In this document: positions 2,528 through 17,813 of the stretch, in pieces | Numbering within the stretch: the stretch's first letter is position 1 | Layout of the letters: each line of letters starts with the position of its first letter | From: Nitrospinota bacterium | Lineage (GTDB): Bacteria; 2-12-FULL-45-22; JACOWJ01 | NCBI GenBank assembly: GCA_016176845.1 | Contig: JACOWJ010000025.1 | Location: 36,428 to 100,427 of the forward strand | Reading direction: 5' to 3' | DNA length: 64,000 nt | Translations under genes and position numbers: made by a program | The notes under the pieces: model-generated | Told to the model about the DNA's origin: nothing | Databases searched by the model: none | What the model saw: the letters and a program-made list of their open reading frames with translations, nothing else

Positions 2528-3553
2528 GTGCTGAACAGCTGGCTGTCGGGGCTGATTATCAAGGGAATCGCAATCGATTTGGGTACGGCCAACACCCTAA
2601 TCTATATCAAAAGCAAGGGCATTGTCTTGGACGAGCCTTCGGTTATCGCAATTTCTGAGAAAAATAGCTCCGTGTTAGCTGTAGGCCGGGAAGCCAAAGA
2701 AATGTACGGAAAGACCCCCGAGTTCATTCGGACCCTTCGACCTATAAAGGACGGGGTCGTCACGGATTTTGAGGTCACTCAACAGATGATCTCTTCCTTC
2801 ATCCTGAGGGTCCTGAAAATCCCCTTCCTCAAGCGAATTCGGATGATTATCGGCGTCCCCTCCGGTATCACCGAAGTGGAGAAACGGGCCGTGATCGAGG
2901 CAGCCAAAAAGGCCCAAGCATGGGAGGTTTACCTGATCCCGGAGCCGATGGCCGCGGCCATTGGCTCCGGCCTTCCCATCCACGAGCCCACCGCCCATAT
3001 GATTGTGGATATCGGAGGCGGGACCACGGAGGCCGCTGTTATCTGTTCTTACGTCGTCTCCTGTTGGCAATCAATCCGGGTGGGGGGAGATGAGATGGAC
3101 GAAGCGATTGCTCATTATGTCCGGGAACGGTTCAACATAGACATCGATATTTTCGAGGCCGAGCGGGTCAAAAAGGCCATCGGTTGCGCGATATCCTTGG
3201 AAGAAAAGTCGGAAATTGATGTCCGGGGGAAGGATCTCTCCACCGAGATGCCGAAAATCATCCGGGTCGATAGCGAGATGATCCGTGAAAGCCTTCGGCC
3301 CACCCTGATGAGCATCGTTGAGGTAGTTCGCAGAACCTTGGAACATATCTCTTCCGCCGTGGCGGCGGATATCTATGACAGGGGACTGACCATTGCCGGC
3401 GGTGGCTCCCTCTTGCGAGGCCTGGCTCCTTTCCTGGAGACAGAAATCAGCCTTCCCGTTCAAATCGCCAAGGATCCCCTGGTGGCCATTGTACGAGGAG
3501 CAGGCTTCGTCCTGGAGAATTTCTCCAGGTATCGACGGGTCTGCATGCCCTAG
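2528..3553 (+). CDS. mreB: Rod shape-determining actin homologue MreB
   Basis: This 341-residue protein is a full-length MreB. It has the phosphate-1 motif AIDLGTANT near residue 15, the phosphate-2 motif VDIGGGTTEAAV near 160, RVGGDEMDEAI, and the adenosine motif TIAGGGSLLRGL near 295. MreB polymerises under the inner membrane and guides elongation-mode peptidoglycan synthesis. The GTG start is preceded by AGGAAAGGGAAAG. Unusually, mreC, mreD and the elongasome genes are not next to it; it stands alone facing an fmdB gene. The segment after phosphate-2 (VICSYVVSCWQSIRVGG) departs from the usual VISLGGIV form, so it may be a second MreB paralogue. Confidence 0.92.
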   Translation: MLNSWLSGLIIKGIAIDLGTANTLIYIKSKGIVLDEPSVIAISEKNSSVLAVGREAKEMYGKTPEFIRTLRPIKDGVVTDFEVTQQMISSFILRVLKIPFLKRIRMIIGVPSGITEVEKRAVIEAAKKAQAWEVYLIPEPMAAAIGSGLPIHEPTAHMIVDIGGGTTEAAVICSYVVSCWQSIRVGGDEMDEAIAHYVRERFNIDIDIFEAERVKKAIGCAISLEEKSEIDVRGKDLSTEMPKIIRVDSEMIRESLRPTLMSIVEVVRRTLEHISSAVAADIYDRGLTIAGGGSLLRGLAPFLETEISLPVQIAKDPLVAIVRGAGFVLENFSRYRRVCMP

Positions 3554-4007: not shown

Positions 4008-4105
4008 TGGCGGAAGCGCGTGGGAGTCGAACCCACCGAGGACTTTATTAGAGCCCGCCACTGGATTTGAAGTCCAGGAGGGACACCGGAACCCTTTGCG
4101 CTTCC
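4008..4105 (-). tRNA. selC: tRNA-Sec (anticodon UCA)
   Basis: The minus strand folds as a selenocysteine tRNA. It has an 8-bp acceptor stem GGAAGCGC/GCGCTTCC, an anticodon arm CTGGA-CTTCAAA-TCCAG with UCA, a long variable arm, a T-arm GTGGG-TTCGACT-CCCAC, discriminator G and an encoded CCA. The total of 98 bases fits the bacterial class. It decodes UGA in selenoprotein mRNAs after charging with serine and conversion by SelA, whose gene is at 16353-17813. selB and selD are not in the window. Confidence 0.96.
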
Positions 4106-4176: not shown

Positions 4177-4227
4177 ATGACCGAAAAAGCCAAGGAGAAC
4201 AGGGAGTTTCGGGATAGACCGTTAAAG
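4177..4227 (+). repeat. EFSDRPLK-type dispersed element, copy 1
   Basis: The plus strand could encode a start-like peptide ending in EFRDRPLKLL but has no gene here. Its complement TTTAACGGTCTATCC gives the TAA stop of the MamK-like gene. Related copies are at 15094-15141, 28884-28900 and 62329-62373. Confidence 0.55.
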
Positions 4228-5265
4228 CTGCTGCCAATACTCCAGGGGCATGTCCATGGCCAACTTCAAGGCACCCTGGGCCCCGGCATAGATCGGATCG
4301 TCCACCACGATGACCTTTCCCCCGCCCAGATCCGCCATGTTCTCTTCCAGAAGCTTATCCAGCCTCCGGATCTGGCTGCATCCCCCGGCCAGGATGACAT
4401 TGTTGCGGAGCGTGGTCTGGAACTCCGGATCGAAACTGCCGACCAGCTCACGGATAGCCTCCACGATGTCGGGCACGATGCTTTCGCAGGCCCGTTTCAT
4501 CTCGTCGGTGACATCGTAGGGGACCAGCTTCCCCCTTACGGGGAATTCCGCCACCACGCCGTCCGGGGTATGAGAGACGAATCCGTGCTTTTCTTTGCAG
4601 AGGCGGGCCATATTCCGGGTTAGTTGGGCCTCCTTGCATTTCTCCTGCAGGAGCCGATAAAGCAGCTCGTCGATATAGTCCCCAGCTTTGAGGACCGTGC
4701 GCTGATCCTCCTCCTCAGGGATCGTACCATGCATCCGGCATAGATCGGTCGTTCCCGCTCCGATGTCAATGATCAGCCCGTACTTGAGGAAATCACGTCC
4801 GTAGGCCACAGTAAAGGGCTCGGAGACCACCATGGCCGCGTCCAGCACCTCCCGACTCGCATCGATCAGGGCCTCTTTGTTGAAGAGATTGGCACGAGCT
4901 GGCGCTCCGATCACCCCGTAGACCTTCTCGCCAGGTGTGGGCTCCGCCAGGCTGACCAGGTGTCGAACCAACTCCTTGGCCGCCTGGCGGGCCTGCCCCT
5001 TCTCTTCGGGGCTGGCGCTGCTCTCATCCTCCAGGGTGTGCTTGATTACCCCTTTCTCCAGAGGGCGGCAGAGATTCAAGAGCAGGCGGTTTTCCAAGGC
5101 CTCTTCCCCAAAAACGATGGACCGTTGGTTCATTAGCCTTTGAGCAATGGCATCTTTGGGCCACCCCACCAGGCTGAGCAAGGTCTTTTTCCCCCCTTTG
5201 CTGGTACAGATGGAGCTCCGAAAGGTCCCCAGGTCGATCCCAATGTAGAGGTTCTCTCCTCTCAT
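4222..5265 (-). CDS. mamK: MamK-like bacterial actin
   Basis: This 347-residue actin-fold ATPase matches the MamK family rather than MreB or ParM. It has IGIDLGTFRSS near residue 8, LVGWPKDAI, the stretch VSEPFTVAYG, the phosphate-2 motif LIIDIGAGTTDL, a GTIPEEEDQ segment, NNVILAGGCSQIRRL for adenosine binding, and the C-terminal ending EYWQQL. MamK filaments align magnetosomes in magnetotactic bacteria; homologues also occur outside magnetosome islands. The ATG at 5265 has a strong AAGGAGG site eight bases upstream and is preferred over two upstream in-frame ATGs. No other mam or mad gene is nearby, so magnetosome function cannot be inferred. Confidence 0.85.
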   Translation of the reverse strand: MRGENLYIGIDLGTFRSSICTSKGGKKTLLSLVGWPKDAIAQRLMNQRSIVFGEEALENRLLLNLCRPLEKGVIKHTLEDESSASPEEKGQARQAAKELVRHLVSLAEPTPGEKVYGVIGAPARANLFNKEALIDASREVLDAAMVVSEPFTVAYGRDFLKYGLIIDIGAGTTDLCRMHGTIPEEEDQRTVLKAGDYIDELLYRLLQEKCKEAQLTRNMARLCKEKHGFVSHTPDGVVAEFPVRGKLVPYDVTDEMKRACESIVPDIVEAIRELVGSFDPEFQTTLRNNVILAGGCSQIRRLDKLLEENMADLGGGKVIVVDDPIYAGAQGALKLAMDMPLEYWQQL

Positions 5266-5341
5266 CGCCCCTTCCTCCTTCATCGAAACAGGAGAGCCTT
5301 CTCCCTGCTCTACCATCGTCCTGTTCCTCCTATGGCCTCTG

Positions 5342-6033
5342 TCATTTCGGTTCCCCTTCGACATGGTTCAAACAAGAACGGATCTGCTCCAGGCCCTCCC
5401 TGAGGACTGCCAGGGCCTTTCGGACTTCTTCCTCTCGGCCGGGTCCTTTCCCCCGCAATTCGAGAGGAGCCTCTTTGGCCAGATTATTCTCTCCGCCCAC
5501 TGGACGAGTTTTTTTTTTGTGCTGGCGACCACCCCTAACTTTTCCAGCTTCCAAAGACCTCCTTTCGGGCCTGGAGGATTTACCCCTCCTTGAATAGGCT
5601 CGCTCCCCTCGTCAGAACTGATGGGAACTTGCTCCAGAGATTCGGGGAAACCCCCCTCCACGCTGGGAGAATCCACCGAACCTTTTTTTCCCGTGAAAAT
5701 GACCGAGTCTTCCATGAGCCCATTTTCCTGCTTGGGGGCGGTCAACTCGACTTTGCCATGGTTTAGTTCGCCCCTCTGAGGAGGTAGATCGCCCTGGCTG
5801 TCGCGGGCTCCGACCCCCTCCCCATTTCGGCTCAAGTCGATTCCGATACGGAGGCCTTCAGGCTCGCACCAGATACGGACGCAAACCTCCCTTTTCCCGT
5901 CGAGGAGCTCCTTCAATAGCTCTAACCATTCCATCAGGATCAGATCCCTCTGGACGGCGCTCCATCGAGCGAAGGCGACCGTCGCGTAAGGTTCCCTGGC
6001 GCGAGGAAGAGGACCCAAAATGGTGAGGGCCAA
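5342..6033 (-). CDS. Unknown gene with apparent frameshift at A10 run
   Basis: Two overlapping minus-strand frames look like one gene. The upstream frame (TTG at 6033 or ATG at 5934) has a plausible N-terminus including MEWLELLKELLDG and RIWCEPEGLRIGIDL, then a polar linker. Beyond a run of ten A residues (T at 5509-5518 on the plus strand) that frame becomes Trp/Ser/Arg-rich, whereas the -1 frame continues with a protein-like, heptad-rich tail ending CLNHVEGEPK at 5342. Either the run is a slippage or -1 frameshift site, or the assembly lost a base. The gene lies 76 bases upstream of the MamK-like gene and may be its partner. No family is recognised. Confidence 0.55.
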
Positions 6034-16352: not shown

Positions 16353-17813
16353 ATGGCTGAGATCACCTTAGAACAGGCCAAGAGGAGGCAGTTGCGCGGC
16401 CTTCCATCGGTCGACGAGCTCCTCCAGAAGCTGAGCTCGCTGGAAGGCATCGGGGAACGATCCCGCCGGCGGATGGTCGAGTCGATCCGGGAGGTGCTGG
16501 AGAGGCTGAGGCGGTCCATCTTGCAGGCCGATACCCTGTCCCGGTTGAACGATATCGACCTGTCAGAAGGCCATCTCCTTCAGGAGGTGGAGGGACAAGT
16601 AGCCCGCCAGGAGGCCCCCAGCCTGAGGCGGGTGATCAACGCCACCGGCATCATCCTCCACACGAATTTAGGCAGGGCCCTCCTCCCCCAGGCAGCCTTG
16701 GAGAACCTGGTTGCCATTGGCAAATATTATTCCAACCTCGAGTATGACCTGCTCAGCGGCGAGCGGGGCTCTCGGCACAGCCACGTCGAGGAGCTCATGC
16801 GGCGCCTGACGGGGGCTGAGGCCGCCCTCTCGGTCAACAACAATGCCGCCGCCGTCCTCCTCTCGCTGGACACCTTGGCCCAGGGCCAGGAGGTGATCGT
16901 CTCCCGGGGGCAACTGGTGGAGATCGGGGGCTCCTTTCGGATCCCGGACATCATGAAGAAGAGCGGGGCCCGGCTGGTGGAGGTGGGAACCACCAATAAG
17001 ACCCGCATGGAGGATTATCGGGCGGCGATCACTCCCGAGACCGCCCTGCTCCTGAAGGTCCACACCAGCAACTTTCGGGTAGTGGGGTTCACCGCCGAAG
17101 CGAGCCGGGAGGAGCTGGTGGAGCTGGGCCGCCAGCACCAGCTGCCGGTTATGGAGGATCTGGGCAGCGGCAACTTCATCGATCTCGCCCGGTACGGCCT
17201 TGCCGCGGAACCCACGGTCCAGGAGGTAGTCCGGGCCGGGGTCGATTTGGTGACCTTCAGCGGCGACAAATTGCTGGGAGGGCCCCAGGCGGGCGTTATC
17301 CTGGGCCGGCAAGATTTGATCGGTCGGATCAAAAAAAACCCTCTCACCCGCGCCCTGAGGATCGATAAGCTCACCCTGGCGGCGTTGGAATCCACGCTCC
17401 GCCTATACCTGGACGAAGAAGTGGCCATCCAGCAGATCCCCACCCTCCGGATGCTCACCGCATCCCCTCAGGCGGTGGAGAAGCGGTGCAAGGCCCTCCT
17501 CCGGAAGACGCAACGCCTGAATGGGAGGAGGATCGCTGAGAATAGGTATCCTCTCGAGGTCCTCATCCTGGACGAACACTCCCAGGCAGGGGGAGGCTCC
17601 CTGCCCCTGGAGCTCCTGCCCACCAAGGTCCTGGCGTTACGATCCCCCACCGCTTCCTCGGAGACCCTGGAGCGACTCTTCCGGGCGAACGAGCCGCCCA
17701 TCCTGGGCCGTCTCCAGAAAGACTTCCTCTACCTCGATCTTCGTACCGTGCAAGAGGAAGAGGAGGTCGAGCTCCTCCAGGCCATCGAGCGGGTGGCTCA
17801 GGAATTGGGGTGA
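16353..17813 (+). CDS. selA: L-seryl-tRNA(Sec) selenium transferase
   Basis: This 486-residue PLP enzyme has the SelA hallmarks INATGIILHTNLGRA near residue 94, NNNAAAVLL, and TFSGDKLLGGPQAG, in which Lys306 is the PLP Schiff-base lysine. It converts Ser-tRNA(Sec) to Sec-tRNA(Sec) with selenophosphate. Length and all core motifs are normal. The cognate tRNA is 12 kb away at 4008-4105. selB, which often follows selA, is not downstream; instead DUF2148 genes follow after 200 bases. Confidence 0.95.
   Translation: MAEITLEQAKRRQLRGLPSVDELLQKLSSLEGIGERSRRRMVESIREVLERLRRSILQADTLSRLNDIDLSEGHLLQEVEGQVARQEAPSLRRVINATGIILHTNLGRALLPQAALENLVAIGKYYSNLEYDLLSGERGSRHSHVEELMRRLTGAEAALSVNNNAAAVLLSLDTLAQGQEVIVSRGQLVEIGGSFRIPDIMKKSGARLVEVGTTNKTRMEDYRAAITPETALLLKVHTSNFRVVGFTAEASREELVELGRQHQLPVMEDLGSGNFIDLARYGLAAEPTVQEVVRAGVDLVTFSGDKLLGGPQAGVILGRQDLIGRIKKNPLTRALRIDKLTLAALESTLRLYLDEEVAIQQIPTLRMLTASPQAVEKRCKALLRKTQRLNGRRIAENRYPLEVLILDEHSQAGGGSLPLELLPTKVLALRSPTASSETLERLFRANEPPILGRLQKDFLYLDLRTVQEEEEVELLQAIERVAQELG

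Follow-up and report, generated by a model that had tools for sequence, protein, structure and literature searches.

The gene at 4222-5265 of the window (the window being the whole 64,000-nucleotide stretch of DNA analysed, positions 36428-100427 of the 100,427 bp contig C61) encodes a MamK-family actin. MamK is the actin of magnetosomes, where it lines up the magnetic particles, and a genome that carries it is easily taken for that of a magnetotactic organism. The explanation that we favour, and that we consider rather probable, is that the gene encodes a non-magnetosomal filament of this family which, in a host that is probably not magnetotactic, organises something at the envelope or at the division site. 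An earlier note on this DNA had proposed two possibilities: the gene is a piece of a split magnetosome cluster, or it encodes a relative of MamK that organises something else. Our results favour the second, while the first loses ground because of negative probe searches and of near-complete genomes of relatives that possess no mam genes.

Identity of the window protein

The earlier note had placed the gene at these positions, which hold; it is read from the minus strand (Table 1), and an ORF check found no coding on the plus strand of the same interval. The longest ORF would start at 5364 (380 aa, with a BeeR-like extension), a start ruled out by the strong Shine-Dalgarno sequence AAGGAGG preceding ATG 5265, and the start at 5265, giving 347 aa, is therefore favoured. 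The codon score of the gene is 0.22 per codon, the contig mean being 0.19.

Table 1. Features discussed in the text; coordinates with no prefix refer to the window, the others to the locus named.
Feature	Position	Strand	Evidence and remarks
True MreB gene	2528..3553	plus	convergent with mamK; NCBIfam MreB 417 bits, cut-off 293
tRNA-Sec, anticodon TCA	4008..4105	minus	directly downstream of mamK, same strand; ARAGORN
MamK-family actin-like ATPase	4222..5265	minus	347 aa; NCBIfam MamK score, AMB-1 MamK match, AlphaFold model, codon score
Shine-Dalgarno AAGGAGG	5274..5280	minus	8 nt before ATG 5265; read in the sequence
Gene for hydrophilic protein (probable)	5342..5934	minus	about 197 aa; upstream of mamK; codon score, three-frame translation
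selA	16353-17813		identified by eye
Amidase with tail motif (example)	L081:5551-6618		motif at N-terminus
Protein upstream of magnetosome mamK	L063:10293-10739		motif at C-terminus
CheW-like protein	L070:8533-9252		motif at C-terminus
Phage protein	L129:2923-3315		motif at C-terminus
Phage MamK-family actin	L128:4995-6038		IMG/VR contig, 49.8 kb
Phage MamK-family actin	L129:4992-5996
Phage MamK-family actin	L130:4983-6005

Residues 6-347 of the protein match the NCBIfam MamK model (NF040964) with 431.2 bits, above the cut-off of 400 (E 2.3e-129). Its relatives in the PDB are, best first, AMB-1 MamK (5jyg and 5ljv, E 5e-82, with 42-44% identity), BeeR (8r2n, 2e-38) and MreB (3e-10). The AlphaFold model of the monomer shows an actin fold (pLDDT 93.5), and the top PDB match of this model is the MamK filament 5ljv (TM 0.89/0.95). 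The likeness to MamK that the earlier note had read in the phosphate and adenosine motifs was confirmed, since the nucleotide motifs are all intact (phosphate-1 GIDLGT, phosphate-2 DIGAGTTD, connecting SEPF, adenosine ILAGGCSQ), and the segments GTIPEEEDQ and EYWQQL, to which it had also drawn attention, are present as well. These last two segments are found throughout the family, in magnetosomal and other members alike (for example GAIPEEEDQ in L027 and KYWEPL in L018), and therefore they are no pointer to magnetosomes. From the fold and the ATPase motifs, we infer that the protein polymerises into ATP-driven filaments.

Other actin families were considered and discarded. BeeR was rejected on score (192.6 bits, cut-off 530) and because the start at 5265 leaves no N-terminal extension; MreB (NF010539) on a score of 53.9 bits with a cut-off of 293; and ParM on profile scores. 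Concerning Mad28, the window protein keeps DIGAGTTD and reaches 431 bits on the MamK model, versus 48 for the Mad28-like protein of the magnetosome-bearing genome G466.

Genomic neighbourhood

The mreB gene lies 0.7 kb from mamK on the opposite strand, and the cell thus has a separate MreB. The tRNA-Sec gene is probably unrelated in function to mamK; its presence together with selA indicates that selenocysteine is probably used by this organism.

On the other side, the gene for a hydrophilic protein ends 76 bp before mamK. Codon use argues that this gene is probably real, and at a run of ten A (5509-5518) its codon score shifts from one frame to another, a change that may be due to an assembly error, a frameshift mutation or slippage. 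The joined product has no transmembrane (TM) segment and no match to Pfam or to a known family.

No mam or mad gene adjoining the window mamK was recognised when the 75 called genes of C61, those of the 36 kb preceding the window included, were read by eye, and two sets of mam probes gave zero matches on this contig; the earlier note, which had seen no such gene in the window, was correct on this point. Phage or plasmid genes were likewise not recognised around the window mamK. No amidase lies upstream of the window mamK, nor was an amidase homologue found in its genome, which is a metagenome-assembled genome (MAG) of 1.53 Mb in 61 contigs, 68% complete.

Distribution and phylogeny of the MamK family

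We surveyed about 1,100 genomes. MamK-family genes occur in 11 of 386 genomes drawn from the range of bacterial families, in 38 of 295 from the phylum of G124, in 41 of 396 from the phylum of G084 and in 4 of 6 from the phylum of G056, and three small phyla have one in all or some of their members. MamK-family genes in genomes with no mam genes are common across the survey: G124 and G507 (both 100% complete) and G286 (near-complete) possess the former and, by probe search, none of the latter. A search of a genome-contig collection with the window protein returned a single distant planctomycete relative, and no plasmid relatives were found.

Three genomic contexts can be described. In context i, one clade in the phylum of G124 lies inside magnetosome clusters (e.g. 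G466, G622 and G567), though for some of its members, L069 and L070 among them, no mam or mad neighbour is visible. Context ii is the larger branch of the family, spanning five phyla, and is treated below. In context iii, a clade in the phylum of G056, mamK is found beside small coiled-coil ORFs (one of them ZapB-like, E 8e-4), FeoB or ParA/ParB. G056 itself, from a small phylum with six genomes sampled, is magnetotactic by gene content, with a cluster of MamA, B, M, E, I, P with magnetochrome, Q and FeoB on L089 and L090 (contigs C135 and C181), and its mamK is on another contig.

In the same phylum, G387, G388 and G330 (L082-L085, L027) carry one to three MamK-family paralogues per genome, several of them beside small coiled-coil ORFs and FeoB. 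No mam clusters were recognisable in these three genomes.

The earlier note had named placement with another actin family as the outcome that would speak against its reading. This did not occur, the window protein being inside the MamK family in all three maximum-likelihood trees. In each of them it is outside both the magnetosome MamK clade and branch ii, and stands alone on a long branch whose sister is clade iii (support 91/81, 90/55 and 97/89). This nearest clade belongs to another phylum and holds one genuine magnetotactic genome, G056; pairing the window protein with G056 alone was rejected by the AU test (p 0.009). The test does not reject either of two other placements, in the magnetosome clade (p 0.30) and in the amidase branch (p 0.38). 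Identity to the three contexts is about equal (44-52%). The window gene thus represents a separate, deep lineage.

Search for magnetosome genes in the genome

The first probe set came from G466, whose genome is complete and has an evident magnetosome cluster; it consisted of MamQ, MamE, MamI, MamB, MamM and Mad28 and recovered full sets in the positive controls G466, G622 and G567. Its only matches in the window genome were a pair of HtrA-type proteases (39-47% in the protease domain) and a CDF protein (25%), a pattern seen also in genomes without magnetosomes. The second set was taken from the very different cluster of G056 (MamI, MamP with magnetochrome, MamB, MamQ and one further cluster gene) and recovered the full set in that control. 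A genome-wide search for mam and mad genes had been named as a check by the earlier note; with both sets, nothing magnetosome-specific was found in the MAG. The single other genome of the order in our genome set (G001) possesses neither MamK-family nor mam genes according to the same searches, and the comparison set contains no other genome of the window's family or genus.

The absence of mam genes from the window genome is based on these probe searches and on the reading of C61, and, since about a third of the genome is missing, it is weak evidence, which lowers the magnetotaxis reading and does not remove it. We consider it unlikely that the organism is magnetotactic, with a cluster in the missing third and the window mamK, split off from it or present as a second copy, serving to align magnetosomes. 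The incompleteness of the MAG speaks for this possibility, as do the separate contigs of mamK and mam cluster in G056, the functional mamK-like gene that AMB-1 carries away from its magnetosome island (PMC2818848) and the AU test that tolerates a grouping with the magnetosome clade. However, two probe sets found no mam-specific gene, the only relative of the order has neither mamK nor mam genes, the pairing with G056 alone is rejected and, outside the phylum of G124, mam-free MamK-family genes are much commoner than mam-linked ones.

An amidase operon in the larger branch of the family

In branch ii a gene for an N-acetylmuramoyl-L-alanine amidase is found directly upstream of the actin gene, on the same strand, in 52 of 53 distinct loci; in the sole exception the contig ends 394 bp upstream. 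The operon is seen at L018, L019, L021, L022, L024, L026, L072-L081, L096 and L098-L127. The amidase has one TM segment, an Amidase_3 domain (Pfam 9.6e-44) and a cytoplasmic tail that is short and basic. In the phylum of G124 the amidase and actin ORFs mostly overlap, by 4-62 bp, and downstream of the actin there is a protein with a receiver, a TM segment and a SPOR domain (SPOR 7.9e-18). No magnetosome genes were found in the branch-ii members tested.

SPOR domains bind denuded septal peptidoglycan, which is the product of such amidases, and the operon can thus be read as a division or cell-separation module. From the operon, the domains and the conserved cytoplasmic tail, we infer that this module would direct, from within the cell, where the septal wall is cleaved. 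Our literature search found no paper pairing MamK with an amidase or with a SPOR domain.

The window protein is 45-52% identical to the branch-ii actins. It would be a cytoplasmic filament working in principle like them, and would use an adaptor to position a cargo, at the envelope, in division or of another kind; the best candidate for this adaptor is the hydrophilic protein encoded at 5934-5342. Since neither an amidase homologue nor the tail motif described in the next section was found in the organism, the envelope role is proposed by analogy only.

A shared peptide and the phage actins

The amidase tails share the pattern K..[IL]LR.[VIA][VYL].[ED]N[LI].[IL], which a simple pattern search recovers in 45 of the 53 tails (an example is RELRVKETILRGVYEDNLRIIGKQP). 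An HMM was built from the amidase tails alone and run over all 601 locus proteins. Below the amidases, the best rank goes to a CheW-like protein whose gene immediately precedes mamK in L070 (E 0.018). Next are the products of the genes just before the magnetosome mamK in L063, L062 and L064 (E 0.02-0.34), with a chance match to SelA ranking between them; in the L070, L063, L062 and L064 proteins the motif lies at the C-terminus. Over the 52 proteins of three phage contigs, the top match is a protein of L129 encoded a few genes upstream of the mamK-like gene (E 9.6e-4), the second, weakly, is the protein directly upstream of the mamK-like gene in L130, and a protein of L128 has LLKVVFEENK near its C-terminus. 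Altogether the motif occurs in four unrelated kinds of mamK neighbour versus 3 of 560 other proteins (the L129 partner left out), the individual scores being weak and the magnetosome cases homologous to each other. Knowledge of the sequences partly guided the choice of the pattern, and the HMM ranking is therefore the fairer test. On this sequence evidence K..[IL]LR.[VIA][VYL].[ED]N[LI] is a candidate MamK-actin binding peptide.

On the window contig, in the upstream ORF and in clade iii the motif was not found above chance, the best match on C61 being SelA (E 0.08). The C-terminal helix of the upstream ORF (KALAVLREGLEQIR) resembles the motif; it was considered and not counted.

The three phage actins are 40-46% identical to the window protein and matched no MamK-type family in PHROGs. 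In L128 the actin gene lies 3 bp before the gene for the terminase large subunit, with a P22-like coat gene near. These actins, a weak match to a PHROG partition-protein family, and the ParA and ParB genes that adjoin mamK in L023 are what could suggest that the window gene came from a phage or plasmid, entered the chromosome and encodes a segregation actin with a ParM/Alp-like role. We regard this origin as improbable, because no phage or plasmid genes were recognised around the gene on C61, the phage proteins form a clade of their own, apart from the window protein, and the plasmid search gave no match.

A relic, left after magnetosome loss or transferred and with no present role, is very improbable. 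The gene is indeed single, with no recognised partner, and isolated between mreB, the tRNA gene and an M16 peptidase gene, but its ORF is intact, codon use is typical, the Shine-Dalgarno sequence is strong and all nucleotide motifs are kept at about 50% identity to relatives, so that it looks under selection. That a cell-shape actin, MreB- or BeeR-like, was mistaken for MamK is hardly credible in spite of the common fold and of the nearby mreB, given the MamK score of 431 bits versus 193 for BeeR and 54 for MreB and the position inside the MamK family in all trees.

Implications for the MamK family

The preferred reading of the window gene, a non-magnetosomal filament, fits a broader hypothesis that we put forward tentatively. 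MamK actins may be at root a general cargo-positioning filament of bacteria and phages, mostly tied to division cell-wall cleavage, of which the magnetosome MamK would be a specialised branch keeping the adaptor peptide seen in amidase tails, in the small proteins upstream of magnetosome mamK and in the CheW-like and phage neighbours; the window gene would be a further deep non-magnetosomal branch. Since MamK-family genes are frequent in near-complete genomes free of mam genes, mamK alone is unfit as a marker of magnetotaxis in genome scans. Moreover, MamK relatives are found widely among non-magnetic bacteria, in most cases with the gene for a cell-wall-cutting enzyme next to theirs, which suggests that the family probably does more than carry magnets. 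The amidase/SPOR operon offers a non-magnetosomal role for the MamK family that can be tested, points to a plausible source of the magnetosome cytoskeleton and supplies a candidate peptide for binding.

Comparison with known systems

The actins of the amidase/receiver-SPOR operons differ from the window gene in their adjacent amidase, as none was found next to the window gene or in its genome. The mamK-like gene of AMB-1, functional outside the magnetosome island (PMC2818848), is similar to the window gene as a MamK-family gene away from a main mam cluster; however, it belongs to a magnetotactic cell and to an islet of other mam-like genes, none of which was found in the window genome.

Mad28, an actin-like protein of deep-branching magnetotactic bacteria, has Ser in place of Asp in phosphate-2 (PMC10653835) and is 15-17% identical to MamK, whereas the window protein keeps DIGAGTTD. 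BeeR (PDB 8r2n), a three-stranded actin of Verrucomicrobiota (PMC11929497), is related to MamK and belongs to bacteria without magnetosomes. It is 30% identical to the window protein and has a disordered N-terminal extension of 30-50 aa, which the window protein does not possess if its start is at 5265.

AMB-1 MamK (PDB 5jyg, 5ljv; NF040964) differs from the window protein, whose loop near residues 75-86 is longer by about 11 residues and which comes from a 68% complete MAG in which no mam or mad gene was found. The two proteins nevertheless match over their full length, with the same fold and the same nucleotide motifs, and their C-termini are also alike, EYWQQL in the window protein and QYWRQL in AMB-1 MamK.
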